A stretch of 64,000 nucleotides of DNA from Patiria pectinifera (taxonomy: Eukaryota > Echinodermata > Asteroidea > Valvatida > Asterinidae). Numbering within the stretch: position 1 is the stretch's first letter; each line of letters starts with the position of its first letter. This document shows positions 3,445 through 63,071 of this stretch, piece by piece. The stretch covers positions 5,908,643-5,972,642 of the forward strand of contig CM057140.1 of the NCBI GenBank assembly GCA_029964075.1. The letters run 5' to 3'. The position numbers were made by a program, and so were the translations under genes. Below the pieces are notes generated by a model. The model searched no databases and had not been told where the DNA came from. It was given only the letters and a program-made list of their open reading frames with translations.

Positions 3445-3500
3445 GTGAGTCAGTATTAATTGCTTAATGTTCGTCGTTTATTCAAATAGATGAAATTTAC

Positions 3501-8166: not shown

Positions 8167-8595
8167 TGATCATACATAAATATTTTAAAAGTCTTTGGAG
8201 AAAGAACATTTCTATAATAGACATACTGTATGTAAAACACATCCAAAGATGGATTTCTTTAAAATAAGCGACTTTTGGGGGGAAATCAATTGTTCCAGAA
8301 AACTGAACCAGTCTTACCCCTCGATAAATTTTCCAAGGAATGAGATTCTTTATGGGAAAAAAATCAGTGTAGCAGTTTAACATGTGGCCCTTTTTGTATA
8401 AATCAACATTTCATTCATTACTTAATAATCGTCTTCACGATGGTAAAGACTGAGGATTTGGTAGTCATTGGCAAACATGATGACTGCAGTTTGAAGTTTA
8501 AAAGTTTGCCAACTTAGTGTGAGGTAACTCGCATGCGTGTATGAATTTTCATTGATAAATTCTTTGTGAACCGGGGTATTGCGCATGCGTGGGCC
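8167..8595. other. Spacer between the two large repeat copies
   Basis: This is sequence with no counterpart in the other copy. I see no coding exon or recognisable element in it, apart from a CG-containing stretch (GCGCATGCGT) just before copy 2. Confidence 0.5.
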
Positions 8596-14441: not shown

Positions 14442-14708
<267 letters not shown>

Positions 14709-15539: not shown

Positions 15540-16200
15540 CGCAGTCTCAAAACTATCATCAAATTCACGGCCTTTTGTTTTAGTGAGGCCATCAGTTGAG
15601 TATTTATGTTTCTTAGTTTCAACTGGCTGTATCATGGGGGGACAAAGCTCGGTGGTAGAGCGTTCGACCGCAGATCGAAAGGTCCCTGCTTCGAATCCAG
15701 GTGTCCCTTCACATTCAGTTTTTGTTCCGGGTTGTGTCAGAGTTTTCAACCCTGCAATACACAGGGACGTAGCAGGACCGATTCAAAGGTGGGAGTTGGA
15801 GAAAACATTTGCCGACAGACCTTATGGGAGGCCAATCAGATTTTTTTGGCGGTCATTCGGGTTGTCGTGAATAAAAAAAAAGTGGGATGGGTTAGTAGGC
15901 TTGGACACCATCGTCTAAGGCAGGTTGCGAGGCATGTGCTTGTCTCTGGTGCGACGTCGCGTCCGGCACGGGGTAGTGATACCCTTTCACTCTGTCGCGG
16001 CATTAAGAGTCTCAGCCGGTTATAGCGAACCACCAAATAAAAATACAGAACAAGAGCTCAGCACACGGGCATCGAAGAGTGATGTGGGTTTTCACCTCTC
16101 CACCGCTCCTTCCCCAAGTCTTTTTTTTGGTGACATAAAATCACAAAATCGTTCGTTGTTCCTGACTACTTCCAGCACGAAGGGTCTGGCGGCAAATTGA
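15540..16200 (+). repeat. tRNA-Cys-containing interspersed repeat, copy 1
   Basis: This segment, including the tRNA-like block and about 500 bp downstream, matches 19335-20165. Shared blocks include ATTTATGTTTCTTAGTTT before the tRNA part, then GTTCCAGGTGG/GTTCCGGGTTG, CAAGGCAGGTTGCGAGG and GTCTCAGCCGG. The repeat is therefore a mobile or duplicated unit carrying a tRNA-Cys sequence, not an isolated tRNA gene. Confidence 0.75.
15638..15708 (+). tRNA. tRNA-Cys(GCA)-like sequence inside a repeat, probably not functional
   Basis: A 71-nt cloverleaf can be drawn. The acceptor stem is GGGGACA/TGTCCCT, the D arm GCTC-GGTGGTA-GAGC, the anticodon stem TTCGA/TCGAA with loop CCGCAGA (anticodon GCA), the variable loop AGGTC and the T arm CCTGC-TTCGAAT-CCAGG. 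Departures from a good tRNA are C instead of T at position 33, one T-stem mismatch and a G-T acceptor pair. The repeat context suggests a tRNA-derived element rather than a working gene. Confidence 0.45.
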
Positions 16201-33500: not shown

Positions 33501-33599
33501 TAGACTTATGTTTGTGGACATGTATGGACATTATGTTTGTATTTACTCAACCTCCTGATGTTCTGATATGATATCTTCGTAAGGCCTGTCCACATATAC

Positions 33600-33835
33600 T
33601 TAGTCACCACCAAGGAAATGATCTGTCGTTCTGTTCTCCACAAGACTTCTGCCTGTGCCTTCCCTGCCCTGTTCCCCGTGTCGACAGCACGAACAACAGA
33701 CATTGCGGATGCATGTTGCCATACTACCCCAGCACACATGGCGCCATGTTGACTTCATCACCGGCCAGAGAAGATTTGCTGTATAAAGAAAACCAAGAAT
33801 GAAAATTGGTACAGATTCGAATAGCCCTGTCCAAG
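33600..33835 (-). CDS. Gene C last exon: final membrane segment and Cys-rich tail
   Basis: The acceptor is TTTGATTGACAG, after an intron of only 153 nt. It encodes WTGLFESVPIFILGFLYTAN plus LLWPV (a further hydrophobic segment), then CWGSMATCIRNVCCSCCRHG and a short hydrophilic tail ending at TAA (33602-33600). The clustered cysteines after the membrane segment could be palmitoylated (inference). If the intron is retained, the frame instead runs to a stop at 33891, giving a different tail of about 32 residues. Confidence 0.78.
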
Positions 33836-36800
33836 CTGTCAATCAAATAGTGCTCATTGACCAGTTAGATTATCACTCATGGTAAAGTGATCACAGTAGC
33901 CCTGTCAATTTTGGTCTCGAGCACCATGCAAGATGCACCAATGAACTGTCTACAACAATCAAGAATATTGATATATTTAAATGCGTACCTATGACAAACA
34001 CAATGATGCTGAAGGTCAGCAGAGCAAAGATAGCCGCAGCGATTTCAGTTCTCAATGTGCCACCTCCAGTAGGAGACAGGAGAACGGTAGCTATCAGGAG
34101 ATTCAGGAAGATGACTGTCAGGGAAAGCATCTGTAGACGATTATCGGTGGCATCTTTCATCGGTGTCAGACGTGCATGTAATAACAGGAACCCAACAGAT
34201 ATGACGATGGTTGCAAACATGGTTAAGTGATCATCTGGGCCGAACATCAGCACAAACAGCGTTTGAGTGATCTTGCGAGAAAGCTCAACAATTTCCCAAT
34301 ACCAGAAATTTGCTTCGTAGTTTCCAGTGAGGAAACTTATCCAGCTGATCTCCACCTGACTTTGCTGTATGGGATTTGGGGGGTTGACTTCTCTCTTGCT
34401 TCTCCACAGAAGTACAAACAGCAAGGACGGAAAGCCAACAACATAACAGAGAGAAGCCTCGGCAGCATGGTTGAAATGAACATGCTGCTCATCTTGACAG
34501 TCGATAGAGTAATCGGATCGAAGTCTCGTTGTACTGTAGGTCTCGTTCTCATCTAGATAGAACAGGTCGCAGCCAGAAGGCAAGAGGGTGAAGATAACAC
34601 CGGACAGGCCAGGATAGGACACAAAGAGAAGCATAACAACAAACAGGTAACATTTCTGCCTTGTAGTTGACAATACCTTGACACGCTCTTCAATGGTGCA
34701 ATTCTTGACCGCCAAGTAGCACTTTGAGACCCAATAGAAACACAATGCTGCCAACACAACGAACGCAACTAAGCTCATCCCAAACAAATACTCAATGTAC
34801 ACATTGCGGTAGGTGAAGTCTGGAAAGTAGCAGCGGGGACTGATAACCAGTTGGACAATATTCATCTCCAGTAGTCTCAAAAATGACCCAAGCTTGGTCA
34901 GAATATTCGGCCAGGGAATCTCGTCAAGTGCAGAAAATATTTCGCCCATCACCTGGTAGAAACCCAGCAAGATTTTTCCCCGAGCAAAGATCACATCAAC
35001 GGCAGACCGTCCTCTTCTCCGATTTCTCCGCACATCCCAAGCGATGACGAGTATTACCACGGCCAACACTACCAGCAACAGAACGACTTCAAGTAAGAAC
35101 CACCACCACTTTGGGCACACATTACAACTATCAAACCACGCGTAGTACCCCATACTGCATTCTGAGCAAAGCCAACCTTCATAACCAACCTCACAAGTGA
35201 CATTGATACCATCACCTTCATTCAAACAAGACTCCTTACGTGGACACGGATGTACCTTAGGCAACACTCCCCTAAAATGCTGCGTGCTACTATTGTAAGA
35301 TTCACTTCTGCTCCTGATGTTGACAACGAAATGTTGATAAGCTTCGTAGTTGTTGTTTGAACTCCAGTCCCAAGTCCACCAGAATCCAGGTAAGAGGTGT
35401 TGATACTCCTCTGAACAGTTAAGACCTTCGTCTGGGCAACGATAACACTCATCAAACCGATCTTTCCGGTAGTACTTATCAAGACAAGAGCATGCGCGGA
35501 ACCCTGCATGGAGACTTTTATTGGTACCTGTAGGACACACCGTGCAATCTGCAGGGCTGATACCAGGGTGAGCAGCTGGGGTGACGAAGGTTCCATTGTT
35601 GCATTTTTGACACTTGATGGGTTGAGATGTATCTGCCACTTGTCCAGTCTTGATTTGGTAAAAACCTCCTGCGATTCAAAGATAATTCATGCAATTCCAG
35701 TAAAATTTATCACCAAAAAAAGTCACTGCCATTTGACAAATATTTTTGACTTCATTTATGGCTGACAGCAAAGTACTCACAGAGTTTCATGCAAACCTTT
35801 CCTTTTTCTCAATGTACTGAGCACTGGTGGCGCTTCCATTAGCATCACGTGGGAGAAGTCCTCCTAACATGACGACACCACTTTAAAATAAAATCCGTGC
35901 ATGCCAAGAAATCGATACTATAATTCCAGGAATCTCTGTCTGTCTGTATGTCGATTATCTCCAGAATATTATAGGTGTATTGCTCGGGACAACAGAATGT
36001 GCAGTGCCAAGTTTAAAGTTCTTTGGGGAGCGGTTCTCGAAAAGCAAATTGTTTACGTCATGTTTAAAAAAAAGTGCGCGTACTCACTATGACGCAACAA
36101 TGGAAAAAAAGGTACATGCATTGTAGGGCGATACCACTGTCCAGTGTGGGTGAATAGCACTGCATATCTGTTGCCTTATGTACACGTACGTACGTGTGTG
36201 AGTGGCTGCACGGGCACATTCATTTTGCAGTCGACTGATGCAACCATCACGGAAGGCGGTCCACTGATCAACCTTTACAGTAAGGGTTGCACAGTCGACC
36301 GCCTACAGTGATGGTTGCTCATTATTTTTTTTACAGGTGGATAGACCATTACCATATACTTGACTGTCCACGTGTAAACAAAATGTAAAATTAAAAAAAA
36401 AAAAAACACCTGTGAGTGTGCGTTTAACCTGTATAATTATAAGCGCAGCGTGCGTTAAACCTGTGTAAACAACAATCATTGAATCGTGTGCGTTGTTTGT
36501 ATTAGCAGTTCTGTGCCCCTTCCGAATAGGCACATTATTGACGGGTCTTGCACTAGTTCTTAAAATCAGAGAACTTTCTAGATCGTTAGTTTCATGCTCA
36601 CACAAATGTCCCATACTCATTGGTGGAGAAAAAAAAACCCAGTGATTGCAAGCGGATGACTCTTGCAATGACATACACGTTTGAGGACACGGTGATTGTT
36701 TAAAATGTCCTTCAAAAAATAATGTAATCCTTTAAAAATAAAAACTGCACTTCACAATACCAGGTGGGCATGCTTTACACCCACTGCTCCATGTTTCTCC

Positions 36801-39800
36801 ATAATATCCTTGGGCACAGGGCACACATTGCCAAAAATCATCTTTGAAGACAGTTTTTGAACAGGAGAATCCAGATTTGCTGAAGAAATATTTAACATCC
36901 TTCGATACAAGTATCGGTAGGGCGAACCCGTCACCAACCTGTTCACTGAAATTGGAAAGTACAAAAGTTAATTCTAGGCATATGTCTCATTTAACAATGC
37001 TCTGTGCCAATGAAAGACAACTCAAGTCTATAGAGTTCATGACACGAACTTTCCTTAGGAACCTTATCCTTCTACTCCTAAATGTATGAAAACTATTTAA
37101 CATCCTATTGCGGGTCAGTTTTGTTGAGAAGTGATTTCTTTAAACGCTTTAGATGTCCATTAGTTGATGGAGAATTAAACATTCCCATGCACCTCCTGCA
37201 CATATTTTTAACCTATTCTTTTTCTAATCCATAAGGTGTCTAGTAAATGAATTTTGATGTTCCCAACATCAAATATTGTCCCATGGGGTTCATTTGACGG
37301 CCATCATGGCGGCCTTCTTGGATTTGGACGAAAATAGGTTATTGAACCAGGCATCATAGGAAGCCAAATGAAGACATTGTGTGTGTGTGTGTGTGGGGGG
37401 GGGGGGGTACTTTGGACGCGAGGAATCGATTGAAAGCATTTATTTTATAATTTGTCGGCAATCTTGGCTGCCATCTTGGATTGCGACGAAAATCAGTTAT
37501 ATGACATAACTTTTCCCAGTAACCTTTAAGTAATATTTAGTTAATGAGATTCGTAAGAGATCCTTACATTTTCAGGTCAGTCCGGTTTGTGGCAGGCGCA
37601 AACTGGAGGGTATTATCAACAGCCCTGAGAATAAAGGAACATAATGTAATGGTGTATGTTCAAAACAACTCCAAACTATTTTTTGGGTGAAAAGGAAAGT
37701 TTTTACGTGTATAACATTTAACAATTGAAACACATATTGGTAGTTCCAATACAGGTAAACTTGCAAACGACAGGGAAAACATAAACATTACTTACACGTA
37801 AGCGTTGATACCCAAATCTTGCCATACGACATCGGAAATAGTCGTCAAATGACTGTCATACAACGATCTGAAAAATAAACAACGGAAAAGTCAAGATCAA
37901 TCGATGCTCAACCGTAAGTGTTTTATCAAACCTGGGTAATTATATGAAATCCAATGTGCATGCCGTGACAAAAATGGTGGTTTACTTGACTCCTTTCAGT
38001 GAAGCAAACAATTACAGAAATTGGATGATAAATGTACTTACACCTGCTTGATTGTGTTATTGACAGTGGCAAATGGCCTCTCTCCAATCGATGAAAAATT
38101 GTTTTGGAACATGGATCTAAAATATAAAATGGAAATGCACGATAACTTTTTTTTTAAATTAAGTTCACAAGCAATAGCTAATTTGTTATCATGTCTCGAA
38201 AATGGGGTTTTCTAAACATGTGTTTTCGTCTTCGGCTTCAGCTTCGTCTCCGACTGCAGAATCACTGAAAAGCAAACCAAATGGAAATAATTATTTCAAC
38301 CTTTGGCCTTATCATACTATAACATTCTCCTGAAGCATAACAGGCACCAGAACGTAACTGGAGTTGCCGAAGTTGGGAGCCTAAAATTGAATGTCCTTAG
38401 CCGAAGACTTTAGACGAAGCCATGATTTCGAAAAGGTCCTGTACAATGTATGAATTGACAGATCCAATAGGCCCCGCGTACTGCGCGCAACGTACCTGCG
38501 TCCCTCTAATATCAATTTGCAATGCAATACCACACTGCAAGGTCTAACCGGTGTCATATGAAAATCAGGCTTCTATAAAAATTGGACTTCTTTACTATTA
38601 CATTGGTTAAACCCTCTCATGTGATTGGTCACTTAATTATCTTTGCTAACGCATGTGCAATACTGCCAATGAGTTCGTTTTTCATAAAAACCTAAATTTA
38701 AGCTACAGTGGACGTGCGTTATGTGAGTGCACACATGTTGGACATAAAACGTTGCTGTAATTGGTAAAAACTTCATGGGGTGGAGCTTGGTTCGTGTATC
38801 TTGTTTTGGCTTATCGTGGTAATTCACGTGACGTCACAGTTCAGTACTTATGACCCACGTTCCCGCCATATTGGACGTCTACGGTTGCAGACTAGTAAAG
38901 AATCTGCCATAAACTCAAGGGATATGCCCACATTGAGTTATCATGATGACAGACCACCCAACCCAACCTAACCTCAACCTCAACCCCAACGACCAACATG
39001 TATACTTACACATTTGTAAGCTGTGTGTTATAGAAAAGCCCGGCTTGTATTTCAACGAGAGGATTGTCAAAAGCGAATCTATGAAACAAAATAACAAGAA
39101 GATTAGTTGTTTGTAGGCCTAAATAATGTATTTTCTTTACTTAAGGTTATTATGATGGGACACTGCAAATTACTTTAAACCCTCTATCACTATACAAATG
39201 CATAATAAACCATTGTTAGGCCAAACCAAGACAGATTTTCGCCATAAGGAATTGCAACGGCCTGGGCGGGGCGATTTGTCTCCTTCAGGTTCAGGTAGGA
39301 TCGACATATTATTATTATATAATATATCCTAAAATGATCCTAAGAGCTATGCTGTATATTTGTCTGATTTTTTTCTGTCTCTGTGGTGTCTATGTGGCAC
39401 TTTTTTTTAAAAACCTACAGAGTGTACGTAAGCACAAAATGCATGGGTTAATTGAGAGGCTTTGTTATTACATGCAGGTCCTGAAATGGTACGGTATGAT
39501 CCGATGTTACTGTCCGCTGAAGCCAGATTGGCAAGTGAAAAACACATATATGTGTCTTTCTTTGGCAAATTGGTTTCTTTCTAGTAGAACTAGAACCGCT
39601 AGTAGAACATAGGAAAAATGGTTCTAGAAGGATCGACACATGATTGTATATGTACAGCCTTGTGTCTGGAGCTTGGGAACAGCGAAGATCTGTTTTTTTT
39701 TCTACCTAAACATGATTGAAAACTAGATTGTTTTAATGAAAATACATTAAAAAAACGACAAGACTCACAGTTCTACTAGAGAGTGAAGATCTTTAAACAT

Positions 39801-42800
39801 CTCTCTGCTGAGGACCCTGATTTGATTGCGTTGCAAGTAGAGCCTCATTAGCTTAGTTTGATTGCGAAATAAGCCATCCGGGATGGATGGGAGACGATTG
39901 GAGCTCAAGTCACTTCAAAATATGAACATATTGAGGAAAAAAAGGAAAGTCAAACCTATGCACAACTCAAACTACACCTGTTTTTTTTTTCGAATCAGCA
40001 ATGCAGGTTAAATTGACAGAGTGAATGTGCAATTTTTTCTTCAGTTTTTTTTTTAATGGGGTGGGTTGTGTTGATTTGAGAATTGCGATTAATGGACTTG
40101 ATAATCGTCCCTCTTGGGAAAAAACCCAAGGGTACAGTTGGGGAGAAATACAGCTGGGTATATTTATGGGCATCGAGTAAATGAATTTGGAAGTTCCCAA
40201 CATTATTGTCCCATTGGTATCCATTTTGAGGCTGTTTCAAAATGTGTCGGCTATCTATGCAGCTATCGGGGTAATTCGGGCATGGCGAATCGATTGAATG
40301 TTATTATTTAATGACAGTAACAAGTAAAATACCTTAATTATTTGATGTTGGGAACATAAAAATTCATTTACTAGACACCTTAAGGATAACACACGTAGGT
40401 GAAAAATCTAATTATATCCAATGGTTGCGTGGGAATCCTATCTTCCTAGTGGCAAAGTTAGGTTACGACTCGCCTAATATATAATAGGCACGTTGTGCAT
40501 GCAACCATTCAACTCATACCACATCTTAAATAGTGTCATTTACTTAGACTGTTTCATGTTTGACACCTTTTTGAAAAATTGAACACTCTGGCACCTCTGT
40601 TTTCTTTTCTCAGATGAAACATCTGTTTTGGCGCATTTTTGTGGGGAAAAACAATCATCATTGTTGCTAAAAGATTGACGTCTAAAATGTGGTGATTGAT
40701 AAAAAAAAAATCGTCAGGCAAAATCTTACAACACTCCGGTTAATGTTGTGTTGACTAGCAGATTCTCTGGTAGAAAAACTAGGTAGTTTTCTGTGATGAT
40801 CCTGTTGGTAAAAGAATATACAAATAACCAACTTACTGGTGACAATCGATTAAAAAAAGCGTTATTGAGAAAATGTTTTCAGGTCTAATTTGTTATGATA
40901 ACGGATGTCGTTGGATTTTTTTTTTAACAAATGTGTACCGAGGTCCTGCAGACAACGACGACTATATTGTATTATACTGTATTATACAACACCTGAATAC
41001 ATTCCCATCATCTGATTGGTGAATTGTAGATCATGTGACATATTATTATTCGGTATAATCATTGATCTCCATATATATGGAGATCAATGGGTATAATGCA
41101 CGGTGCGACCATACGTTATACCCATGCATTATACCGTTTCACTTTGCGCTTGTTCCATGACGCGGTATTTGCGTGCAAAATGCATGCTGGTGTGCGCGTT
41201 CAGCGTAGCGCGTATTGTTCCAAAGAGCCAGCGCTACAGCGTTGGGTTCAAACCATAGATATAGAATAAAAAAACTAGATCGGCAGCGCGTCCACACGCG
41301 CCCATTCACTGTGCGATAAATCTACGCCATTTTTGTTGTCCCTCGTGGACGCGCAACTAATTAACGTAAAGTAATGGAGCTAAATGTATCTTTCCTCCAG
41401 CACGTGACCAAGCTCGACGCGCGCAAAGCCCGAAATGCGCACCGAGTATTTACGCGATGCGCACACGCGTTAGCGATAATGGTGCACTGTGCGCGTAAAC
41501 GGCGTTGCGTTCGTCACGTTTTCGCGCATCAGTTGTATCTTTCCTCCAGCACGTGACCCTCCATGAAAGTCCGCGCGTGTGGACGCTCTGCCGATCTAGT
41601 CTTTTTATTCTTTATCTATGGTTCAAACATATTCGTGAAGGGGTAGTTCAACATCTTTAGAATCAAAACAAATTGTAGTTTATAATTTACCAATCAAATG
41701 ACGAGAATATATTCAGGTGTTGTATAAAACAAATAACGAATGTTTTACGTTCGTGCCATGGAAAGAATAATTTCATTCGGTGACAGATTGAATGTTATAT
41801 TCCACTCGGCTTCGCCTCGTGGACTAGAACATTCAATCTTTCACCTCATGAAATTATTCTTACCATCGCACTCCCAAACATTCGTTATTTGTATACTATT
41901 GTCATTTAAGCAAAACAAACATGAATGAGAAGAAGTGTACTGCACTTACAAATTTCCGATTTCAGTCGACGCTTCAAACAAACCCTCTGGTAGAGTCGTT
42001 AGATGATTGTACTGCATTTCTCTAATGTTTTTACAGAGATGCAAAATGAAAAGTCTATCATTTCTAGCTTCTAACAGTACATGTATGTATTTGTCTAACA
42101 TTGAAACAACAAACCCTTCCAATTAAATGTCGGTCAAGTGAAGCATACACTATTAAGGGAATAAATGTGTGCTCCGGGCTTTTTGATCACTCTGTTTAAG
42201 ACCGCTTAGAGTATGGGTGCTGATAATTACCCAATTATCTCAATTATATGGAGATAGACACGCGCGTAGCATGTTCTGCGCGATGTTGCGCCGAACGCAC
42301 CTGGGGCATTGCGTTTTGAATTTAGAACTATAAAATTCTGATTCGCTGGTAGTGTTGCGCATGTTCTACGTGAGGATTGTGAACGTTCAACAAATAAAAC
42401 GGTAAGAGGCACTGGATTTTTAGGAGTCCACATTTTATTGTGACACTGGAAAGGGTTTAGGACTAGCCCTGGTGGACTCCCTTTCCTCCCTACGTTACGG
42501 AGGGAGTCCTGAGTACACATGTGCTCACAACCGAACGCAAAACATTTCTGACCAATAATTTTAATATTTTTACCTGTTGGAGAAGCTAATTTTTACGTCG
42601 TAGTGTCCTATGTGTCCTTATCTGTTAGCACGCTGGGTTCAGGAATTCCATATGCGATGCTGACTGACGTCAATCAGGAAAATAAACTCGAAAGCATCGT
42701 TAAACTTGTACGTGTTTAGGTTCTTTTCATCAGTTTCTCACCGCCGAGTCTATTCTAGTCGTACATCATGTACGTCTGTACTCTGCAGCGTGTAGTCTGG

Positions 42801-51800: not shown

Positions 51801-54800
51801 TGGTGGCGCTTTGGTGTTTAAATTGGCAATAAAAGTTCTGAACTTATTGAACTGTTTGAGTTCTAAACTTATGGAAAAGTTTTAAGGCGAGATAAATTGA
51901 ATATTATAGTTCTCAACCTGTTGAACAGTTTGCATAATATGATAAGTCGGAACTTGTCAAATTTGTAAACAATTTTTAACCTGAATAATTTGGCTATTAA
52001 AAGTCAACCAATCAGATGACGAGGATTTATTCAGGTGTTATATCAAACAAATAATGAATGTTTTACGTTCGTGCAATAGAAAGAATAATTTCATTCGGTG
52101 ACAGATGAAATGTTCCATTCTACTCGGCTTCGCCTCGTGAAATGGAACATTTCATCTGTCACCTCACGAAATTATTCTTTCCATTGCACTCACAAACATT
52201 CATTACTTGTATACTATTCAACAGTTAGGATCATGACGTGGTATTTGTGCCCAAATGCATGCTGGTGTGCGCGTTCAGCGTTGTGCGTAGCGCGTATTGT
52301 TCCAAAGACCCAGCGCTATACAGCGTTGGGTTCAAACATGTTTGTGAAGGGGTGGTTTGGAAGAGAGAATACATTTTCCTCCGGTTTTGTATTAAAAAAA
52401 AAAAATCAAATATATCAAATGACAAGGATCTATATGTCAGTTATATAAAACAAATATTGAGTGGCTTTAAATTTTGAAATGGGTAACGCCGATTGCTTCA
52501 CGAGACGAATTTCAAAGATTTTGGACGAATCGGGATGCTAACAATTTGAACTATACTGAACCTTAAATGAAATCTAGTTGTGGTTTTTTGAAATTCAAAT
52601 TGAGAATTGAGCTTGGCAATGTTCGGGGACGAAATTAAAGTATCGATATAGACAATTCGTGTGATACAAGTGTTAAAATAACCGGGAAAACCTATATTTC
52701 TTACAATTGTTGGATCTGCAGTCCTTCAAAATTATCCGGGCCGAGTTCCTTCAAACTGTTTTTTGAAATTTTCCTGCGGAAAACAAAACCAAAAAAAATA
52801 GGTAATTTCTCCGAATATCTTCCTTATGCCCACTCTTATTCTTTATTAATATTTCATAAACCAGCCACAAAAAAAGTCCATAATGTTGTCAAGAAGTTAC
52901 CAAATCGACCTTTAGAGCTAGAATTGCGTTAGGATCGCGTCAACGCAGCTTTAGAAATATTGTCCAATAACATGAAATAAAAATATATGCGGAGCGCCCA
53001 CAATCTTAGACAAACTGTAGTGTACAAAAACTCCATGGGATTGTATAAGGGGCGTGGCTATTAACTCGCAAACAAACGGTGATAGGTCAACAAGGCAAGC
53101 CACGGCTTCGACGCTGTTACCAATACTGCTTTGGTACTAAACAAAGATGTCCCTATTATCTAAGAACCTCCTCCATTATGTTATTGTCTGTAAAGGACAG
53201 TTTAGGTCAAAAGAAGTCCCGGTTTCTTTGATGAAGCTGGCCTCAAAAATGGTGCGGCGACGCGCCCCCCCCCCTCCATTTTTTTCTTAAAATGTCGGCT
53301 GATGTCAAAGGGTTTCTTCAGACTGGAGTTTGCGGTGACCTCAGTAAGGCCATTAAGCTTAAAGCCGATGTCACACGGGGAAATTTTCGGGCAATTTTGA
53401 GGCAATAAAAGTTGCTGGCAATCTAGTTGCTCACAGATTGCCTTGTGTGTCATGTCATGCGATCCGAAAGCAATACGCTGGCAACTCGGAGGCAACGTCA
53501 ATTTTGAGTAGAATGGGTTTCTACTTTGAGGCAACGTTCGGAGGCAACCACCAATCAGTTTGCACAGACGGGATGACGTCATGTTTCACACTGCCGAAAA
53601 GTTTTTAGCGGTAGCCATTTTTTCGTCGTCACTAACGTTTTTCTCATCAAGAAATGACGGTTGCAGGTAGAACAGTGTGGTCTTATGACAAGGAGGTTTT
53701 TTATTGATTTCTACAAAGGTATGTTTTAGTTTTCATATGATTTGCAGGCCTAGACTAGAGTGGGTCGTAACAAAACAGGGTTCGCAAGTTACGTATCAGT
53801 GCTAGTCATGCTAGTGTATGTGCGTCCATGACACCGTATTGCATTTATTTCGTGATAATCGTATCTATTTCGTTATAATTGTATCTGCTTTGTGATAAAC
53901 AATCCAACCCACAGAAATAAGGGCTTAATTATGTTTCAAAAATAGTTAGTAGCATTTAAAACCAACAGGAGTTTCGTGAATAGAGGGCAGGGTGTTGAAT
54001 TTTTGAGGGAAAGGCGCAACACAAAGATCGCACTAGCACTATTTTTGATCACCATATACTGCACTTCTCCGAGCTCCGTGTATTGTGAGCCACACCCAGC
54101 TGTCAAACGTTCTCTGTGGGGAAAAGTTGAGTTTGACGATCGCGATTATTTTTTTTTACACGGAGGAAGTCGGTACAGGGGCGAATCCAGGAATGTTTGC
54201 AGGGGGTCTCATCAGCAAAAAAAAAACATGTGAAATGTAAATAGATTTGTTTTCTTCAGACACTTGGCATTGGTAAAATCAATAGGGGGAGGGGGTGGCT
54301 CGTACCATACTTTCAATGGGGGCCCTGTTCAAATCCAACGATCATCAACACTATATGTACATTTTGGCTCCTATCAATGCAAGGCATTTGTTAAATCCTG
54401 CCATTTTTTTCATAGTTGTTCTGATGTCTTGCGGTTATTTTGACACCAATTTTATGAAAAAAGGCATGAGTTCGCCACGAAATGTCCATTTCCCAACACA
54501 GGTAGGCCTAAATGTGAACTTTTCCCATGAAATTACATGCACATGAAAGCGTGCATGATAAGTGTCGACTAACAGATTGATTGAAGCTGTGCAAATGCAC
54601 TACAAAATTTAAATTGGGAAAAAAAAAGCATTTGTATTGATGCTTTGACATTGTGGAACATGAAAATGTAACTTTTTGTCATACTAATTCTTTTTGGTCA
54701 TACTAATTAACTTTAGAGGGGCGCGAAGAGCACGGAGGGGGCGGGGATGCACGCCCCCCCCCCCCTCCGTGTACATTTTGGCTCCTACCGTCGCAATACA

Positions 54801-57800: not shown

Positions 57801-60800
57801 ATCTTCCAAGCTATCAAATGATACTGGTTTTGTTCTTGTTTGCAAAATGTTGATTAAATGCAAAATTGGCCCCACTTGGCATGGCGCCAATGGGCCTTGG
57901 TCTGATCTAGCAAAACTTAAGAATGGCCATTCTGTGATCAGGGTCGATAGTACTATGCTTTAAGACAATCAGGGGATTTGTTCCCGAGATTTTGATTAAA
58001 CACTGTCCGGCTCTCAGTCTAATTTTGCAGTAGTCGGGATCCATTCGCAGACTGTGTCACAATTTTGGGATTGAGCGATGGTCGTGTATCTGGAACCGGC
58101 CATCTGTGATCTGGGTCGATGACACTATGCTTTAAGACAATCAGGTGATTTGTTCCACGTTAAAATTGTGCAGCAGCAGGATTTCAATTAAACCAGTAAT
58201 TTCGAGGTTTTGAGATATAATCTGACATTAAAAAACAACCTTTTTTCTATTTATGCCAACGCACCCACCCATACACAGGCTTAGAAGTGGGGTACTTCCT
58301 TTGTTCTCGTGAAGTAACATTTGGCAATGTCTTACACTAATGTAAAAATGCTCTATTTTAACCAGAATTCATAAATACCCTCGCCGCCGGCTTGGGTAAT
58401 TATCAGCACCCAGACAACTACCCTCGCCTCCGGCTCGGGTAATTATCAGCACCCAGACTCTAAGCGGTCTTAAACAGAGTGATTAAAACCTGTCGAACAC
58501 ACATTTATTCCCTCATTAATTTCCTGGGCTGAAATTCAGACTTAATATCCCTTTTCTCAAACTCTTCCATTTGCGACAAATCAACCCACCTTTGAAATTT
58601 CTAGTTTTTGAGTAAAATCCATCTATCTACCAAAACGGTACCCCGCAAGTCGGTGGGCATTTCTTGTGGGGTACCTCCCATTGTTCCGGTACCCCATAAG
58701 GCAGTGTTTGTACACGCACAGCTACGCGCAAACCAGAAACGGGAGATTGTCTCTCCCCCCCCCCCCCATCCCTGCTTTATATTTCTTAACACCACGAGAG
58801 TTACTTTATTTTATCGCGGTTTTGTGTAATAACATTAACGTGACTAATTATTGTGTATGTATCGACCTTGGATAGAAATAAAGTCAAATTAGCACGAACC
58901 CAAATGTGAATGTAGTGTAACGCTCATTGAAATTCATTCTTAAATCATAATAACTCGTTTTGTATTACATGTTGCTGGTATATGTAAACAATGACAGTTA
59001 AGGAATGAAAAGGGGAAAAAAACTTACAAAGTATCCATGTTCTTCGGGCCAGTCAATTCCTTGGCTGATATGGTTGATATGTTGTTTCTGTCCAGATATC
59101 TGATTGAGCCAATACATTCGAGTGGAAAATATAGCTCTGTTTCAGATGTTTCACTTTGATATCATCATTTATTCATTCAAAATCAAGTAATTCTGAGCTC
59201 AATCACGCCCCTTAACTCTATTTTGGACCCCATCAAAGTCTGGAAAGATGCTCCCTCATTTGCCCAGACATATTGACATATTTAAATCGCTTTCACTTGA
59301 CATTATAACCAACTCCAGGGACAAAGCTTTGGCACAATTTTCAACTACACCAATATGTACTGATAGCTCTCTGTTGCAAATCACAGTAGCATAATTGCTA
59401 ATTTGTCTTCTCTGAATGTTGTTTTGTTTATGTTGGACTCATTCGTCATTAAACTAATCTACGAATTAGTCAAACACGACAACTACTGCAAAAATGATGT
59501 TTAATTACAGAATATCCATGTTGACAACATAATAGGTTCTTACACAAAATACAAACTTCACTTAACATTCTTCTCCATTTTATGACGGTAATAGTTATAA
59601 AAAAGCCTTTTCGTTTGATACTCACAAATGTTGAAGGTCGGTGCAACTCTTGAATGCACCCGCTTCAATACTAGTCAAATCATTCCCGGTTAAGATCCTG
59701 CAAAAAAAAAAATGTATCTTAAAGATGCGCTCTTCTTGCTTTTTTTCGAATTTCATTCCAACCTTTTTTTAAAGTTAATAATGTTATGGCGATAATGTTA
59801 TTCACTTTTAAATGCAACAGCGACCGAAAATAAAATCCTCCCACGTTTAGTATTACTTTACAATTTCGAATTATTGGCGACTAGACAATAATTCCGTTCT
59901 CGCGTGGTAGTCTGGCTCCCGCCGCAATATCGATATGTACAGACCGGGCGCCAGTGTGCTCGAAAAGCAGATCTGTGTTGTGCCTAAAACTAAAACTAAT
60001 TTTTCAGAGGTTGAGGTTTCTGCAAACGAGGTTTAAGATACAGTATAAGCTCGCTCGGGACGGGGTCGGTAGACTTGAGATATTAGACTTGAGATACGTA
60101 CAAGTGACATTCTTATTATGACCAATAATAAAAAACATTGTTCAAACTTACAGATGTGACAACTTGGTACATCTTGCGAATGTATCTTTACCGATCGCCC
60201 TTATTTTGTTGCCTTCGAAATTCCTACAATAGAAACCAAAATTGTAATATAAGTTAATTGTCTTGCATTATTATCATCAAGGTAATATAGCAACGACAAA
60301 CTCCCCTGATAAGCCAGCGCATGCATCACAGCTGCAATATCTACTTTATAAAAATACAACACAATCAAGCCTTAGCATTTAGACTTTTGTATTACAACAT
60401 CAAAGAATACGGAAGCGTAGAAGGGCCAAAAAAAAGTAAGAAAAATGTATTTACTATCTCGCCGCGGCGAGTTACTATCTCGCCGCGGCGAGTTACTATC
60501 TCGCCGCGGCGAGTTACTATCTCGCCGCGGCGAGTTACTATCTCGCCGCGGCTAGTTACTCCCCCGCCGCGGCTAGTTACTATCTCGCCGCGGCGAGTTA
60601 CTATCTCGCCGCGGCGAATTACTATCTCGCCGCGGCGAATTACTATCTCGCCGCGGCGAATTACTATTTTGTATAAGTTAGCGTCAGGCACGACAATCGC
60701 GATCCCTCCGGGTCCTATGGAACGCCAAAGAGGCAGCAGCGTAGCCAGGGTTCTCAATTCTCATCCTAGGGGACGTGAGAGGGGGTGGGGGACTTGAGGT

Positions 60801-63071
60801 TAAAATGGGGAGGGGGCGCCCAAAAATGTTAAAGACCGTAAGACAGGGTTTCTTCACCGGATAGCCGCCCGATACCCGCCCTATAGTCTAGTGTCCCACA
60901 TGCAACTGCACTCAGCAGGGAGGAGAGACGCACTACATTATTCCGTGTTCTGCTCGCGTCTACCGCTTTTCAATTTTCAAGGGACGTAACAATAAACAGC
61001 CACTCGCGAAAAAAATGCGTACAAAAATCGCTGAAAAAATTACTTATATTCTTCAAGCTAATCATGGTAACTCATGGAGGTGTTTTTTTACGGATGCCAA
61101 GTTTTCAGGTGGGGGGGGGGGGGCGACTGGGGGTGCGTCTTGTTTATGCCGGGGGGTGATAGGCTTTTGCAATCAATGTTGAAATATCGCAATCGGTGAT
61201 GGATTTTCGTGATCGGTAATGAACTTTGCAAATGGACGTTCACGATGCAGAAACGTCAATACTGGTCACCGGTGAAGTTGACCTAAAAGGTGCGCGTGGG
61301 GAAAATCGTTTTTAAGGTTCCCCAATCTTTTTTCTAGGAATCCTTACAAGTTGTTATTTCACGAGTAGTTGAACTCTAATAATATTCCGAATTTAAGCTT
61401 AATCTGTTGCAGACGCTTGTGTTACACCTAAAATCACCGAGGTCAAGCTCAAATTTTGCCGAGCAAAAAACATGGTCAACCGGTACGCTATACCATGGCC
61501 GGTTTTGCCGCAACGTTGACGTAAAATATGACGTGCGCGTTATTAGCATATTAATTAGCGTGACTCTGCGTGACTTCCCGTTGGCCTTGGTATAGACCAA
61601 TCGAAAACAACCCAAAAAGTTAACTCTTTTTTTGGTGGAGAACTCATGAAGGAGGGAGTCGTAAACTTTGTAACTGCATTCCATGTGGATAGAACCTTAT
61701 TAATATTCGTGACGCTTGAAAGTATTGAAAAATGACGAACTCAAAGCCTATTATCAAATTGTAATGAGAAATACTGAACATATCAAAACGATTTCTTTTT
61801 AGCACATAGTAGGATCATGATCTCTGAGATACGGCCTTCAAAACGGGAGTAAATGATGTTTAAAGAGTTAGCCCGCGAACATCCAAATGTCTGTGTAACG
61901 GTAATTTGAGCTTGTTTCCTTCAAATCGGTCGTAACAATCGAAAGACGGTACATTACAGTAATTACTTTCCCCGCCCTCTGAGAGATGCAATTATAATGT
62001 TGAATAGTTGGCAGGGTCATCTTCATCCCGTACGCGAATGGATCTAGCATTCCAAGTGGATAAATCACCTGTTGCCGCCTATTGAACTTTGTTTTCTTTC
62101 TTAATTTATTCTTAACAAAACAAGAAAGGACAACTTTATTATTACATATATTATTTCATTTATCGAACGTACTAACTTAAGAAATTAGAACCCAGCCCTG
62201 TGTGGGTGATTAGGGTGTTTGTTTTGCCAGAAGTTGATCACATATTGCATAAATCCATCACCACTCGCGAAAATCCATCACCGATTGTGACAGTCAATCA
62301 CCGATTACAAAACTCCACTGCCTATCGATAAAGTGCATCACCGATTTGATGATCACATTAAATGCCGCTATTCGCTATTCGTCGTGCCTGAAGTTCGCCG
62401 ATGCAAAACAGTAAGTCGCCGCGGCGAGATAGTAGCTCGCCGCGGCGAGATAGTAACTCGCCGCGGCGAGATAGTAACTCGCCGCGGCGAGATAGTAACT
62501 CGCCGCGGCGAGATAGTAAATACATTTTTCTTAATTTCTTTTGGCCCTTCTACGCTTCCGTAATAGAACAATAATTTCCAGGCTACAGTTTCTTAAATGT
62601 ATGACATTAATCTGTGGTGGTAAAAAAAAAAAAACTGTCATTTAATTCTAAGCATCAAAGCAGTTTCTAATTTGTCAGATTAACGCGTCACGTGCCTTAC
62701 CAAAGAACTTTGCAACAGATTTTCTTGCGGAGACATTTTAAAAGTCGCAAATGTGTCCATTTCCGTTATTGAATATAAAAAGCAACGAAAAGTTAATGTT
62801 TACTCACACTGTCTGTAGCTCGACCCCATTTTTCATGACCAAACTAACGTCTGACAGTTGATTTACACTGACGTATCTACGAACAATGGTTAGAGTTTTC
62901 GCGTTGTTAAATTGTCATAACAGCAGAAGAAGTTTTAAAGTGGGATTTTCTCACAAATGAATGGTTGAAAAATGTCAGTGATTCACAATGTCAAGAGGAA
63001 TTTATACTTACAAACTCATTACCGACTCTGGAATTTCGAAAGCCCTGTCAATGCTGTTGCCGGTCAAGTTG
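33600..63071 (-). CDS. Gene C: LRR / GCC2-GCC3-like Cys-rich / multipass membrane receptor (17 of its exons)
   Basis: Exons, 5' to 3': 63071-63012, 62876-62808, 60223-60152, 59697-59626, 59099-59028, 52773-52705, 50691-50602, 47744-47685, 42021-41950, 39912-39769, 39078-39010, 38116-38042, 37867-37796, 37624-37568, 36945-36761, 35668-33989, 33835-33600. Joined, they give 3154 nt: one base completing a Leu codon, then 1,050 codons and a stop, with no frame break. All borders are GT/AG and the LRR introns are phase 2. The product has about 15 LRRs, a Cys-rich ectodomain, about 8-10 hydrophobic segments and a Cys-rich tail. The exons at 63012 and 62808 match gene A exons 3 and 4, so two exons (signal/LRRNT and first LRR) should lie to the right of 64000. 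Large introns hold transposons. It is probably a cell-surface receptor or channel-like protein; ligand and pathway are unknown. Confidence 0.85.
33989..35668 (-). CDS. Gene C main exon: Cys-rich ectodomain and membrane region (560 codons)
   Basis: The acceptor is TTTGAATCGCAG and the donor GTACGCAT. Cys pairs CQKC, CTVC, CSC, CYRC, CSEC and CNVC mark a GCC2/GCC3/EGF-like ectodomain of about 185 residues. TM1 follows (WWWFLLEVVLLLVVLAVVIL, about 35108-35037) and then a basic patch (RRNRRRGR). After that come FYQVMGEIFSALDEIPWPNI and further hydrophobic segments around YLFGMSLVAFVVLAALCFYW, YLFVVMLLFVSYPGLSGVIF, LCYVVGFPSLLFVLLW, HLTMFATIVISVGFLLL, LQMLSLTVIFLNLLIATVLL and EIAAAIFALLTFSIIVFVI. 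The ENFW-like stretch FWYWEIVELSRKITQTLFVL sits between them. This layout recalls uncharacterised large multipass proteins of animals and protists with TRP-like/polytopic C-termini; that comparison is from memory. Confidence 0.9.
36239..36318. repeat. Small inverted repeat in a gene C intron
   Basis: GCAACCATCAC at the left and GTGATGGTTGC at the right, with GGCGGTC/GACCGCC inside, form a stem of about 28 bp with small mismatches. It is possibly a miniature element. Confidence 0.6.
36761..36945 (-). CDS. Gene C linker and start of the Cys-rich GCC2/GCC3-like region
   Basis: The acceptor is TTTCCAATTTCAG and the donor GTATTGTG (a weaker GT). The 185-nt exon changes the splice phase from 2 to 1. 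It encodes EQVGDGFALPILVSKDVKYF, then a segment with CxxCxxGYYGxxWSxGCxxCPPG spacing (PCAQGYYGETWSSGCKACPP), which continues as GGFYQIKTG in the next exon. This spacing is typical of the ephrin-receptor-like GCC2/GCC3 repeat. Confidence 0.8.
37233..37460 (+). mobile_element. Fragment of a TIR element shared with 40163-40383
   Basis: It begins AAGGTGTCTAGTAAATGAAT and TGTTCCCAACATCAAATA, the same terminal sequence found inverted at 40340-40383. The interior includes (GT)n followed by a G run at 37378-37407. No right-hand TIR is seen. Confidence 0.6.
37568..37624 (-). CDS. Gene C short exon at the end of the LRR block (57 nt)
   Basis: The acceptor is CTTTATTCTCAG and the donor GTAAGGAT. It encodes AVDNTLQFAPATNRTDLK, a truncated repeat with an NRT sequon. 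It is probably the last, incomplete LRR leading into the Cys-rich region. Confidence 0.75.
37796..37867 (-). CDS. Gene C LRR exon (72 nt)
   Basis: The acceptor is TTATTTTTCAG and the donor GTAAGTAA. It encodes SLYDSHLTTISDVVWQDLGI followed by NAY-V. This is a degenerate LRR in which the conserved Asn is replaced by Ser-His. Confidence 0.8.
38042..38116 (-). CDS. Gene C LRR exon (75 nt)
   Basis: The acceptor is CATTTTATATTTTAG and the donor GTAAGTAC. It encodes SMFQNNFSSIGERPFATVNN followed by TIKQ-V, an LRR one residue longer than usual. A likely N-glycosylation sequon is NNT. Confidence 0.82.
38222..38440. mobile_element. Short element with CTTCGGCTTCGTC-type ends
   Basis: The left end CGTCTTCGGCTTCAGCTTCG and the right end CTTAGCCGAAGACTTTAGAC are imperfect inverted repeats. 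They belong to the same family as the ends at 43461 and 47576. Confidence 0.5.
39010..39078 (-). CDS. Gene C LRR exon (69 nt)
   Basis: The acceptor is TGTTTCATAG and the donor GTAAGTAT. It encodes FAFDNPLVEIQAGLFYNTQL followed by TN-V. The first consensus Leu is an aromatic residue here. Confidence 0.82.
39769..39912 (-). CDS. Gene C double-LRR exon (144 nt)
   Basis: The acceptor is ATATTTTGAAG and the donor GTGAGTCT. It encodes two consecutive 24-residue LRRs, DLSSNRLPSIPDGLFRNQTK and YLQRNQIRVLSREMFKDLHS (shown in part). The size is exactly 2 x 72 nt, consistent with loss of one intron between two LRR exons. Confidence 0.88.
40163..40383. mobile_element. MITE, about 221 bp, TIR ..AGTAAATGAATTT..GTTCCCAACAT
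   Basis: The left TIR (40167-40203) and right TIR (40340-40383) are inverted, about 40 bp each. The interior has no frame. A related fragment lies at 37233. Confidence 0.75.
40975..41727. mobile_element. TIR element (TTATACAACACCTGAATA family), copy 1
   Basis: The left end TATACAACACCTGAATACAT, then the CATCATCTGATTGG block, is repeated inverted at 41690-41727 (ATTCAGGTGTTGTATAA). It contains the perfect 28-bp palindrome centred on ATCTCCATATATATGGAGAT (about 41063-41090) and CpG-rich sequence shared with 52230-52360. A second MITE is inserted in it at 41254-41620. Confidence 0.8.
41254..41620. mobile_element. MITE nested in the 41-kb element, 8-bp duplication GTTCAAAC
   Basis: The ends CATAGATATAGAATAAAAA and their inverted counterpart extend through ACTAGATCGGCAG and CGTCCACACGCG (TIRs of about 50 bp). 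GTTCAAAC flanks both sides (41246-41253, 41621-41628). The related sequence near 52330-52340 reads GGGTTCAAACATG uninterrupted, which is the empty site. An 8-bp duplication points to hAT-like transposition. The 367-bp element has no coding capacity. Confidence 0.9.
41745..41885. repeat. Long hairpin next to the TIR element, copy 1
   Basis: GTGCCATGGAAAGAATAATT ... AATTATTCTTACCATCGCAC form a stem of about 60 bp whose loop is near CTCGGCTTCGCCTCG. The same hairpin is at 52068-52190. Confidence 0.85.
41950..42021 (-). CDS. Gene C LRR exon (72 nt)
   Basis: The acceptor is AAAAACATTAG and the donor GTAAGTGC. It encodes EMQYNHLTTLPEGLFEASTE followed by IGN-L, a canonical LRR. A transposon-associated hairpin begins only about 70 nt past the donor. 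Confidence 0.87.
42150..42240 (-). repeat. Interspersed repeat shared with 58440-58520
   Basis: Read in reverse it contains GGGTAATTATCAGCACCC, CTCTAAGCGGTCTTAAACAG and ACACATTTATTCCCT, the same as the 58.4-58.5 kb segment. Confidence 0.7.
42610..43298. mobile_element. TIR element with arms of about 140-bp, about 690 bp
   Basis: The left arm (TCCTTATCTGTT, then GGGTTCAGGAATTCCATATG, then ATGCTGACTGACGTCAATCA) is found inverted at 43157-43298. The core is CpG-rich with palindromic ACGTACAT words. No transposase is present. Confidence 0.85.
43679..43771 (+). other. Possible first exon of a plus-strand gene or captured gene fragment
   Basis: ATGGCGGACATC at 43679 opens a frame through HKHDQNLFKKMEVSNRKYFG up to the strong donor AAG-GTAAGTTCGAG at 43772. 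A second piece after TTTGTCGCAG (43842 on) reads FYYATAYAAAAVQSQYGGYR before a stop. The Tyr/Ala/Gly-rich piece faintly recalls the N-terminus of ZFR-type RNA-binding proteins. Splicing between the two pieces and coding status are unproven. Confidence 0.25.
46290..46468. mobile_element. MITE, 179 bp, ends CAGGGGTGTGA / TCACACCCCTG
   Basis: The inverted ends are flanked by the direct repeat AATGTA (46284-46289 and 46469-46474). The interior is a run of TTTCAGCTTT words. The ends are of the hAT type (CAGGGGTG), although the visible duplication is 6 bp rather than 8. Confidence 0.75.
46504..46792 (+). mobile_element. LTR of a retrotransposon (289 bp)
   Basis: It starts TGTAACG and ends CGTTACA, a perfect inverted terminus. 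It contains a TATA-like TATAAAG (about 46662) and AATAAA (about 46698) in the correct order for an LTR promoter and poly(A) site. It is followed at once by TTGGTGGCAGCCGTGGCATG, whose TGGTGGCAG suits a primer-binding site. Together these indicate the 5' LTR of a Ty3/gypsy-like element. No matching 3' LTR is seen in the window. Confidence 0.8.
46793..47535 (+). mobile_element. Truncated internal part of the LTR element with a duplication of about 300 bp
   Basis: A frame beginning near MASKAFVTLDDSELDFFKVL (about 46957) may be the start of gag. The block from CATCCCATGGAGAATCGCG to CATCAACACACGTG (47040-47180) recurs at 47339-47481 with few changes. No protease, reverse transcriptase or integrase motif is present, so the element is a relic. 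Confidence 0.6.
47685..47744 (-). CDS. Gene C LRR exon (60 nt), rest of the split repeat
   Basis: The acceptor is TTCTTTTTCTAG and the donor GTAAGTAA. It encodes NVVSRVAIGAFNGVKKLNKL. Together with the end of the 50602-50691 exon it makes two LRRs of about 25 residues. The intron between the two exons is almost entirely a giant fold-back element. Confidence 0.78.
47838..50496. mobile_element. Giant fold-back element filling a gene C intron
   Basis: The left arm (about 47838-49283) is the inverted copy of the right arm (about 49578-50496), estimated at 85-95% identity and best near the centre. Outer arm parts are tandem units with CAAAAGTGGACAACT and TTTTCTGCTAGCAGAAA words. Inner parts carry CAGCCGGTTGTACCGGCTGA. 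The core of about 290 bp holds a G run and CAGTACTGCAGTACTG. The left arm is longer because a MITE lies inside it. The exons at 47744 and 50602 sit about 95-105 bp outside the two ends. Confidence 0.9.
48302..48825. mobile_element. MITE nested in the left arm only, TTAA-flanked
   Basis: The ends AGGGAATGTACA and their inverted partner TGTATATTCCCT are flanked by TTAA on both sides. The right arm of the host has the uninterrupted site CCCGTTTTAAAAGTGCC (reverse of about 50020-50036). Because the bases around are TTTTAAAA, the duplication could also be read as TTTAAA or TA; TTAA (piggyBac-like) is only one reading. It is 524 bp with no transposase. Confidence 0.85.
50602..50691 (-). CDS. Gene C LRR exon (90 nt), junction shifted relative to the repeat
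   Basis: The acceptor is GTTTTCCAG and the donor GTAAGTAT. It encodes SFSRNTISEIPPNLFVDPSN followed by nine more residues (KQHRTEIKT), then TG completing a Cys codon in the next exon. It carries one full LRR plus the start of the following one, so the intron cuts inside a repeat instead of at the usual boundary. The frame with both neighbours is correct. Confidence 0.72.
51373..52450. mobile_element. Nested TIR elements, outer copy
   Basis: The outer ends TTATATAACTAACATATACA with GATCCTTGTCAT (51373) and their inverse near 52420-52450 enclose an inner pair TATACAACACCTGAATAAAT (51634) / ATTTATTCAGGTGTTATAT (52027-52045). A third related end (AATTATATAACCGACATGCA) lies at 51497. It shares CpG-rich internal sequence with the 41-kb element. 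Confidence 0.75.
52068..52190. repeat. Long hairpin, copy 2
   Basis: GTGCAATAGAAAGAATAATT ... AATTATTCTTTCCATTGCAC form a stem of about 55-60 bp with a loop at CTCGGCTTCGCCTCG. The stem is better conserved than the surrounding DNA when compared with 41745-41885, and several changes appear compensated on both sides (GAAATGTTCC/GGAACATTTC here, GAATGTTATA-type there). Confidence 0.85.
52705..52773 (-). CDS. Gene C LRR exon (69 nt)
   Basis: The acceptor is TTTTCCGCAG and the donor GTAAGAAA. It encodes KISKNSLKELGPDNFEGLQI followed by QQ-L. It is separated from the preceding exon by about 6.2 kb of repeat-rich intron. Confidence 0.84.
53350..53720 (+). mobile_element. Possible DNA-transposon 5' end
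   Basis: A GATGTCACACGGGG-like terminus is followed by repeats of the words GGCAAC, TTTTGAGGCAA and GTTGC. A short frame then begins at ATGACGGTTGCAGG (about 53655) and reads MTVAGRTVWSYDKEVFY, reminiscent of the Trp-anchored start of Myb/SANT-like domains carried by some transposons. It ends at a stop codon. The call rests on resemblance only. Confidence 0.3.
54170..57800. repeat. Cluster of C/G-run-containing repeats with tandem duplication
   Basis: Blocks of one family occur at about 54290-54540 and 54690-54900 (one orientation) and at about 57030-57250, 57340-57660 and 57700-57790 (the other). They carry words such as CAAGACATCAGAACAACTGT and GCCCGCCCCCTCCGCG. Between them a unit starting AAAGGTTGTGCACTTTGAGA repeats at about 55128, 55371 and 55881 (periods about 243 and 510 bp) and ends in long C, T and G runs. 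No exon of gene C is seen here. Confidence 0.65.
57900..58160 (+). repeat. Tandem duplication with period about 140-bp
   Basis: GGCCATTCTGTGATCAGGGT, then ACTATGCTTTAAGACAATCA, then GGGGATTTGTTCC (57929 on) recurs at 58098-58157 with small changes. Confidence 0.7.
58376..58520 (+). repeat. Two tandem copies of about 57 bp and the interspersed repeat shared with 42150
   Basis: TACCCTCGCCGCCGGCTTGG followed by GTAATTATCAGCACCCAGAC occurs twice in tandem (58376 and 58421). It continues into CTCTAAGCGGTCTTAAACAG, found inverted at 42.2 kb. Confidence 0.75.
59028..59099 (-). CDS. Gene C LRR exon (72 nt)
   Basis: The acceptor is GGCTCAATCAG and the donor GTAAGTTT. It encodes YLDRNNISTISAKELTGPKN followed by MDT-L. 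The consensus Phe is replaced by Leu. Confidence 0.86.
59626..59697 (-). CDS. Gene C LRR exon (72 nt)
   Basis: The acceptor is TTTTTTGCAG and the donor GTGAGTAT. It encodes ILTGNDLTSIEAGAFKSCTD followed by LQH-L, a canonical 24-residue LRR. Confidence 0.87.
60152..60223 (-). CDS. Gene C LRR exon (72 nt)
   Basis: The acceptor is CTATTGTAG and the donor GTAAGTTT. It encodes NFEGNKIRAIGKDTFARCTK followed by LSH-L, a canonical 24-residue LRR with N, I, F and L at consensus positions. Confidence 0.85.
60455..60668. repeat. 21-bp satellite of CTCGCCGCGGCGAG units, left arm
   Basis: There are about ten units of CTCGCCGCGGCGAGTTACTAT. Two central units carry changes (CGGCTAG, CCCCCGCCGCGG) and the last three read GGCGAATTA, so units are not fully homogenised. 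Open frames such as TISPRRV repeats are translations of the satellite. Confidence 0.93.
62405..62520. repeat. 21-bp satellite of CTCGCCGCGGCGAG units, right arm
   Basis: There are five to six units in the opposite orientation (GCCGCGGCGAGATAGTAACT). Copy number is about half that of the left arm. Confidence 0.93.
62808..62876 (-). CDS. Gene C LRR exon, homologue of gene A exon 4
   Basis: It is 69 nt, acceptor TTCGTAG, donor GTGAGTAA. It encodes YVSVNQLSDVSLVMKNGVEL followed by QT-V. The unusual GTGAGT donor and the junction valine are both shared with gene A exon 4. Confidence 0.88.
63012..63071 (-). CDS. Gene C LRR exon, homologue of gene A exon 3
   Basis: It is 60 nt, acceptor TTTACGTAG, donor GTAAGTAT. 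It encodes NLTGNSIDRAFEIPESVMSL, with 14 of 20 residues the same as gene A exon 3. Confidence 0.88.

Follow-up and report, generated by a model that had tools for sequence, protein, structure and literature searches.

The minus strand of the analysed stretch of sea-star DNA (the window, 64,000 nucleotides, C12:5908643-5972642 of a 613.5 Mb assembly) carries most of a 20-exon gene that belongs to a family of at least 35 copies. The source is most likely Patiria, an asterinid sea star; a search for COX1 found none. We estimate at about 50% the probability that these genes form an expanded sea-star receptor family, in which a recognition arm of leucine-rich repeats (LRRs) is coupled through a stalk to a TRP-like, possibly Ca2+-permeable membrane domain. 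The product is probably a cell-surface protein, a location predicted from the sequence. From its N-terminus it is composed of a signal peptide, an LRRNT, approximately 16 LRRs, a cysteine-rich region with DUF7630, and about nine hydrophobic segments.

The one long frame in the all-frame list of open reading frames is located on the minus strand at 33891-35675 and has 594 codons from stop to stop, or 591 from the start of its exon; an earlier note on this DNA had put it at 582. The frame contains the IPWP and FWYWE motifs of that note, and the gene is thus read toward lower coordinates. When segments flanked by AG and GT were sought on the minus strand with a constant intron phase, a series of 60-90-nt LRR exons and one double exon of 144 nt emerged. 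The 8 kb past the right edge of the window contain an exon with the start codon, a signal-peptide-like stretch and the LRRNT, and one further LRR exon. All 20 exons, the splicing of which is predicted from the sequence, join into a single frame of 3,441 nt that encodes 1,146 residues and has its sole stop at the end. The 19 introns are all GT-AG, and the donor of exon 19 (gtattg) is weak. The earlier note had joined 17 splice-bounded exons into one open frame of 1,050 codons between 33600 and 63071. The 20-exon model, its introns and the paralogs bear out the joining but not the count or the bounds: the window holds 18 exons (63071 to 33891, approximately 1,057 codons with the stop), the coding sequence ends with the stop at 33891, and the two exons of the 5' end are outside the window. 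The strand, the 5' end beyond the window, and the 35-copy family were absent from that note. The coordinates of the gene are listed in Table 1.

Table 1. Exons and domains of the sea-star gene in window coordinates; exons 1 and 2 are given in extended coordinates.
Feature	Position	Strand	Remark
Exon 1 (signal peptide and LRRNT)	71933-71737	-	extended coordinates, outside window
Exon 2 (LRR)	64122-64051	-	extended coordinates, outside window
Exon 3 (LRR, 60 nt)	63012..63071	-	conserved in B6053, C5502, D6166
Exon 4 (LRR, 69 nt)	62808..62876	-	splice scan and paralogs
Exon 5 (LRR, 72 nt)	60152..60223	-	splice scan and paralogs
Exon 6 (LRR, 72 nt)	59626..59697	-	splice scan and paralogs
Exon 7 (LRR, 72 nt)	59028..59099	-	not found in paralog D6166
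Exon 8 (LRR, 69 nt)	52705..52773	-	splice scan and paralogs
Exon 9 (LRR, 72 nt)	50895..50966	-	splice scan and paralogs
Exon 10 (LRR with insert, 90 nt)	50602..50691	-	splice scan and paralogs
Exon 11 (LRR, 72 nt)	47685..47756	-	splice scan and paralogs
Exon 12 (LRR, 72 nt)	41950..42021	-	splice scan and paralogs
Exon 13 (LRR, 72 nt)	40730..40801	-	splice scan and paralogs
Exon 14 (two LRRs, 144 nt)	39769..39912	-	double exon also in C21 paralog
Exon 15 (LRR, 69 nt)	39010..39078	-	splice scan and paralogs
Exon 16 (LRR, 75 nt)	38042..38116	-	splice scan and paralogs
Exon 17 (LRR array end, 72 nt)	37796..37867	-	splice scan and paralogs
Exon 18 (post-LRR linker, 57 nt)	37568..37624	-	splice scan and paralogs
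Exon 19 (start of Cys-rich region)	36761..36945	-	Ephrin_rec_like below cut-off here, over cut-off in six paralogs
Exon 20 (last, including stop; Cys-rich region, DUF7630, TRP-like membrane domain)	33891..35668	-	
DUF7630 (PF24633)	35115..35252	-	residues 139-184 of the 591-residue exon-20 product, just before first membrane segment
Membrane domain (about nine hydrophobic segments)	33894..35090	-	tied to Pfam TRP PF06011 through paralogs

With the intron phase fixed and exon lengths taken from the gene model, a strict search for LRR exons bounded by splice sites identified 14 on the minus strand, all of which are exons of the model. Over the same 38 kb, the plus strand gave no such exon, and each of 20 Markov shuffles gave zero or one. 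A loose scan separates the strands less well, with 36 segments on the minus strand and 12 on the plus strand, compared to a shuffle mean of 13 and a maximum of 20. The strict scan and the identical order of the exons in the paralogs rule out that unrelated open segments fell into one frame by chance, a reading to which we assign a negligible probability.

Several repeats and other features were observed elsewhere in the window. A GC-rich unit of 21 nt that is in part palindromic (CTCGCCGCGGCGAG core) forms two arrays, at 60451-60667 and 62410-62519, in the intron between exons 4 and 5. Two further arrays, at 7123-8169 and 12643-14243, consist of a related 55-nt unit, which mostly has the opposite orientation in the second; they may represent a satellite or a mobile element whose ends are inverted. 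They are followed by a (TA)n run of approximately 132 units at 14444-14708 and by a tRNA gene or tRNA-derived repeat at 15638-15709, which is the sole Rfam match (RF00005, 53.6 bits). A run of N is present at approximately 3500-4000.

A search of the genome with the membrane part identified at least 35 copies, 20 of which are on contig C12 at 4.88-6.53 Mb, within 1.65 Mb, with five on C10, four on C14, three on C6, two on C21, and one on C18. In addition, C10 carries a broken piece of this exon that contains stops (C10:8545615-8547335). The set was unchanged when one of the most distant copies served as the query. Paralogs B6053 and C5502 contain all 20 exons and encode intact proteins of 1,191 residues, D6166 has 19 of the 20 exons, its exon 19 being uncertain, and in E4883 exons 9-20 were found, and exons 1-8 were not found in the stretch covered; the exon borders of these paralogs were set by a script guided by the model from the window. 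The conservation of DNA between the window and the C12 copies falls on the exons. In a copy on C21, the last exon of which is 64% identical, the 10 kb covered upstream contain the Cys exon and LRR exons that match those of the window, the fused double exon among them. Since this copy shares the exon plan, the arrangement of LRRs, cysteine-rich region and membrane part predates the split of C12 and C21. The Cys exon, exon 19, is located near the last exons on C6, C10, C12, C14, C18, and C21. The gene in the window shares with the family the common exon plan, DUF7630, and the homologous membrane exon.

The cluster also displays signs of recent exchange and loss. On C12, the copy at 6053 kb and that at 5502 kb are near-identical in all three domains (dS 0-0.03), which indicates a recent duplication within the cluster. 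Over 33001-34387, a segment with the 3' half of the last exon and the DNA that follows it, the window and the C12 copy at 4883 kb are 97.8% identical, whereas the adjoining 34392-35889 is only 87.4% identical; this switch near 34387 looks like gene conversion between copies. Copies of exon 19, together with a neighbouring exon 17, occur at C12:5616255 and C12:6534065, and the list of membrane-exon matches has none close to them; these are possibly truncated or decaying genes.

The ectodomain begins with the LRR arm that the earlier note had proposed. Pfam profiles run against residues 1-639 (E<=1) detected LRR_8 (E 4.2e-51) and LRRNT (E 4.8e-6). The best relatives of the LRR part in the PDB are LGR4 ectodomains (E 1.2e-34), and it also matches TLR3 and a VLR chain, all among the best 60 of 332 sequences at E<=0.001. 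The cysteine-rich stalk, likewise anticipated, contains DUF7630, which is over its cut-off of 27 in the window copy (35.3 bits, E 1.3e-8). DUF7630 was detected at E<=0.1 in 28 of 28 aligned copies (the window copy and 27 of the other 34); among the copies shown in full, the five divergent ones score under the cut-off (19.1-25.4 bits). A literature search for DUF7630 by name found nothing. The second stalk element, Ephrin_rec_like, which we take to be the renamed GCC2_GCC3, scores 15 bits in the window copy, under the cut-off of 23.1; in the genome search it is over the cut-off in six places, each of which is exon 19 of a paralog on C6, C10, or C12.

The variation between copies is concentrated on the concave face of the LRR arm. 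Where it could be computed, dN/dS between pairs of copies is 0.15-0.52 in the individual domains, which shows purifying selection on their coding sequences. In 15 aligned repeats from four copies (window, B6053, C5502, and D6166), the five concave x positions vary at 53 of 75 sites and the 14 later positions at 63 of 210. The conserved asparagine does not vary in any of the 15 repeats, and the two core leucine positions vary in seven of 15 each. Positions -4 and -3, counted in neither group, vary in nine and four of the 15. In eight of the ten possible pairs, dN/dS is 0.65-1.87 for the concave codons and 0.29-0.44 for the other LRR codons. The difference between the concave and other positions (Fisher p 1.5e-9) is less certain than the p-value implies, because B6053 and C5502 are near-identical and the sites are not independent; the concave-face statistics come from four to five copies, including these two. 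The pattern is as expected if the concave face binds differing ligands. Relaxed constraint on this face may be the source of the variation instead, given the small number of copies, the variation of the core leucines, and the concave dN/dS below 1 in four of the eight pairs. Together with the copy number, the variation pattern gives moderate support to a role in recognition.

The membrane part is a remote relative of the Pfam TRP family PF06011, which includes fungal Flc and Pkd2, with the link made through the paralogs. Since the window protein fails the PF06011 cut-off (10.6 bits, E 0.24, cut-off 28.5), we class it as a remote relative and not as a member. PF06011 was detected at E<=0.1 in 26 of the 28 aligned copies (best E 5.2e-10), the window copy being one of the two without it. 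A PF06011 search of the genome produced nine matches at E<=0.001, all inside the present gene family; seven of the nine are marked over the curated cut-off, one only with its frame neighbours. Of the six paralogs for which the full match was shown, L030 (39.2 bits) and L033 (34.8 bits) score over the cut-off and the other four under it (16.8-21.7 bits). The passing copies are approximately 63-87% identical to the window exon. The matches cover the C-terminal half of the profile (positions 228-395 in L030 and 207-396 in L033), and none of three reversed paralogs matched PF06011. The earlier note had suggested that the membrane part may represent a poorly described class and had guessed at a TRP-like fold; the guess gains from the paralog matches, which also mean that the part is not wholly unclassified. 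A PDB search with the last exon and its alignment left the membrane part unmatched and returned three weak matches to the cysteine-rich part only, an NCBIfam search gave a single match at chance level, and a search of viral contigs for relatives confirmed none.

A hydropathy scan of the protein placed strong segments near residues 736-771, 842-876, 886-926, 955-979, 1025-1058, 1064-1093, and 1091-1132. Weaker segments lie near 775-803, 813-836, and 1014-1030, and the tail at 1116-1139 is hydrophobic. The count of about nine agrees with the 8-10 segments proposed previously. We infer a topology of nine helices, with 8-10 possible, in which the N-terminus would be outside and the C-terminus inside the cell. 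No pore residues were identified in the membrane domain.

The Pfam profile search that the earlier note had suggested for the membrane part identified PF06011 in the paralogs and no rhodopsin-type GPCR family, in agreement with the proposed distinction of the protein from rhodopsin GPCRs and Toll-like receptors. No 7tm, GPS, PLAT, or PKD_channel match was found in the last exon of the window copy (E<=10) or in the 28 copies (E<=0.1). TIR was matched neither in that exon nor in the first 639 residues; PKD repeats, GPS, PLAT, and PKD_channel had no match in the first 639 residues (E<=1), nor PKD repeats in the last exon (E<=10). On the basis of these scans, membership among rhodopsin GPCRs, Toll-like receptors (TLRs), and polycystins was rejected.

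The protein could nevertheless be an LGR/RXFP receptor or a polycystin-1-like protein, the membrane part of which has diverged past recognition. This reading would agree with the LGR4 matches of the LRR part and with the LGR genes, which have one LRR per 72-nt phase-2 exon and thus resemble the present gene. LGR4/LGR5 and RXFP also have an LRRNT, a long LRR array, and a multi-pass membrane part; however, the sea-star protein is without a 7tm match and has a DUF7630 cysteine-rich stalk and a PF06011-like membrane domain. Polycystin-1 similarly combines LRRs with a TRP-type multi-pass membrane part in one protein; its LRR array is shorter than that of the sea-star protein, in which PKD repeats, GPS, PLAT, and PKD_channel had no match. 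Fungal Pkd2 is called the ancient homologue of animal polycystins in a review (PMC12028594). With PF06011 as the membrane match, we consider a diverged LGR/RXFP receptor or polycystin-1-like protein very unlikely.

The window copy differs from the other members in a variable loop, acidic in composition, that joins the fifth to the sixth segment. This loop has 32 residues in the window copy and 64-127 residues in the 26 others that could be anchored (27 others examined); approximately 43 residues of this predicted cytoplasmic loop are missing. The short loop may be a sign that the window copy is a decaying, non-functional member of a functional family, in which other copies are damaged, such as the C10 fragment and copy L017 with its truncated last exon. 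The deletion is, however, in frame and in a variable loop, the 20 exons and 19 splice borders are intact, and dN/dS against B6053, C5502, and D6166 is 0.31-0.46 in every domain, which together make decay of the window copy unlikely. Acidic dileucine-like motifs are present in the loop in 12 of 27 anchored members (28 examined) and absent from several close copies, so a dileucine function is a weak suggestion.

If the genes encode receptors of the kind that we favour, the signal peptide would place the LRRNT and the approximately 16 LRRs outside the cell, where the concave face, diversified between copies, would bind ligands. The stalk, formed of the ephrin-receptor-like repeat and DUF7630, would link the arm to the membrane domain of about nine helices. 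The binding of a ligand or a pull on the LRR arm could then be transmitted through the stalk to open a Ca2+-permeable path in the membrane domain. A variable recognition arm would thus feed straight into a calcium signal and serve chemosensing or immune recognition. In this scheme the channel activity is predicted from remote homology, and the ligand binding and physiological role are likewise putative.

The fungal relatives Flc, Pkd2, Trp1322, and TrpR are described as Ca2+-permeable or as controlling cytosolic calcium (PMC9600462, PMC12028594, PMC8618638). We tentatively propose, with the odds somewhat against it, that the family is an undescribed class of animal ligand-gated cation channels, in which a tandem-duplicated, diversifying LRR arm is fused to a Flc/Pkd2-type TRP-like pore, and which would couple recognition to Ca2+ entry in one polypeptide, in chemosensing or immunity. 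A comparably possible alternative, also short of even odds, is that the proteins are recognition or adhesion receptors, the membrane domain of which is not a pore and has a metabotropic, scaffold, or transport function. Similarity to PF06011 does not establish a channel, fungal Flc proteins have also been proposed to carry FAD (PMC8618638), and the dileucine-like motifs of the loop could fit trafficking or adaptor binding. The calcium functions described for the fungal relatives argue against a non-pore domain, and the present analysis gave no sign of G-protein coupling.

The receptor reading that we prefer combines modules that are each known from other proteins. Fungal Flc1-3, Pkd2, and Trp1322/TrpR resemble the sea-star proteins in the C-terminal half of PF06011, as matched in the paralogs, and in an N-terminal non-membrane domain that precedes the multi-pass part. 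Among the papers searched, six name PF06011, three of them on fungi (PMC10732042 being one) and three on crustacean sensory systems. Most tested Flc1 homologues carry the ML-like domain PF14558, according to PMC9600462. In contrast, the sea-star proteins are from an animal, are encoded by at least 35 copies, with the window copy below the PF06011 cut-off, and have an ectodomain of LRRs and a cysteine-rich region; PF14558 had no match in the first 639 residues (E<=1). In the work on crustaceans, PF06011 was used as one of several TRP screening domains. The extracellular LRR solenoid and the variation of its concave face are shared with TLRs and VLRs. Both VLRs and TLRs bind on the concave face. 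Unlike them, the sea-star protein is neither single-pass nor GPI-anchored, with its approximately nine hydrophobic segments, and has no TIR.

None of the titles and abstracts among the literature matches listed describes an LRR protein of an animal that has a PF06011-type membrane domain, but sequence databases may contain such predicted proteins without a name. A term search of PMC13228809 and PMC13409769 returned nothing on a family of LRR proteins with a PF06011-like domain. The combination of the modules, their expansion, and the concave-face variation were likewise not found among the matches listed, and the sea-star genes may be an undescribed family of recognition receptors. If so, an animal family of at least 35 genes with a long, variable LRR arm on a PF06011-type domain would widen the range in which this domain is found. 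It would also offer a repertoire of sensor-channel fusions that arose in nature and, for recognition in echinoderms, a candidate that can be tested.
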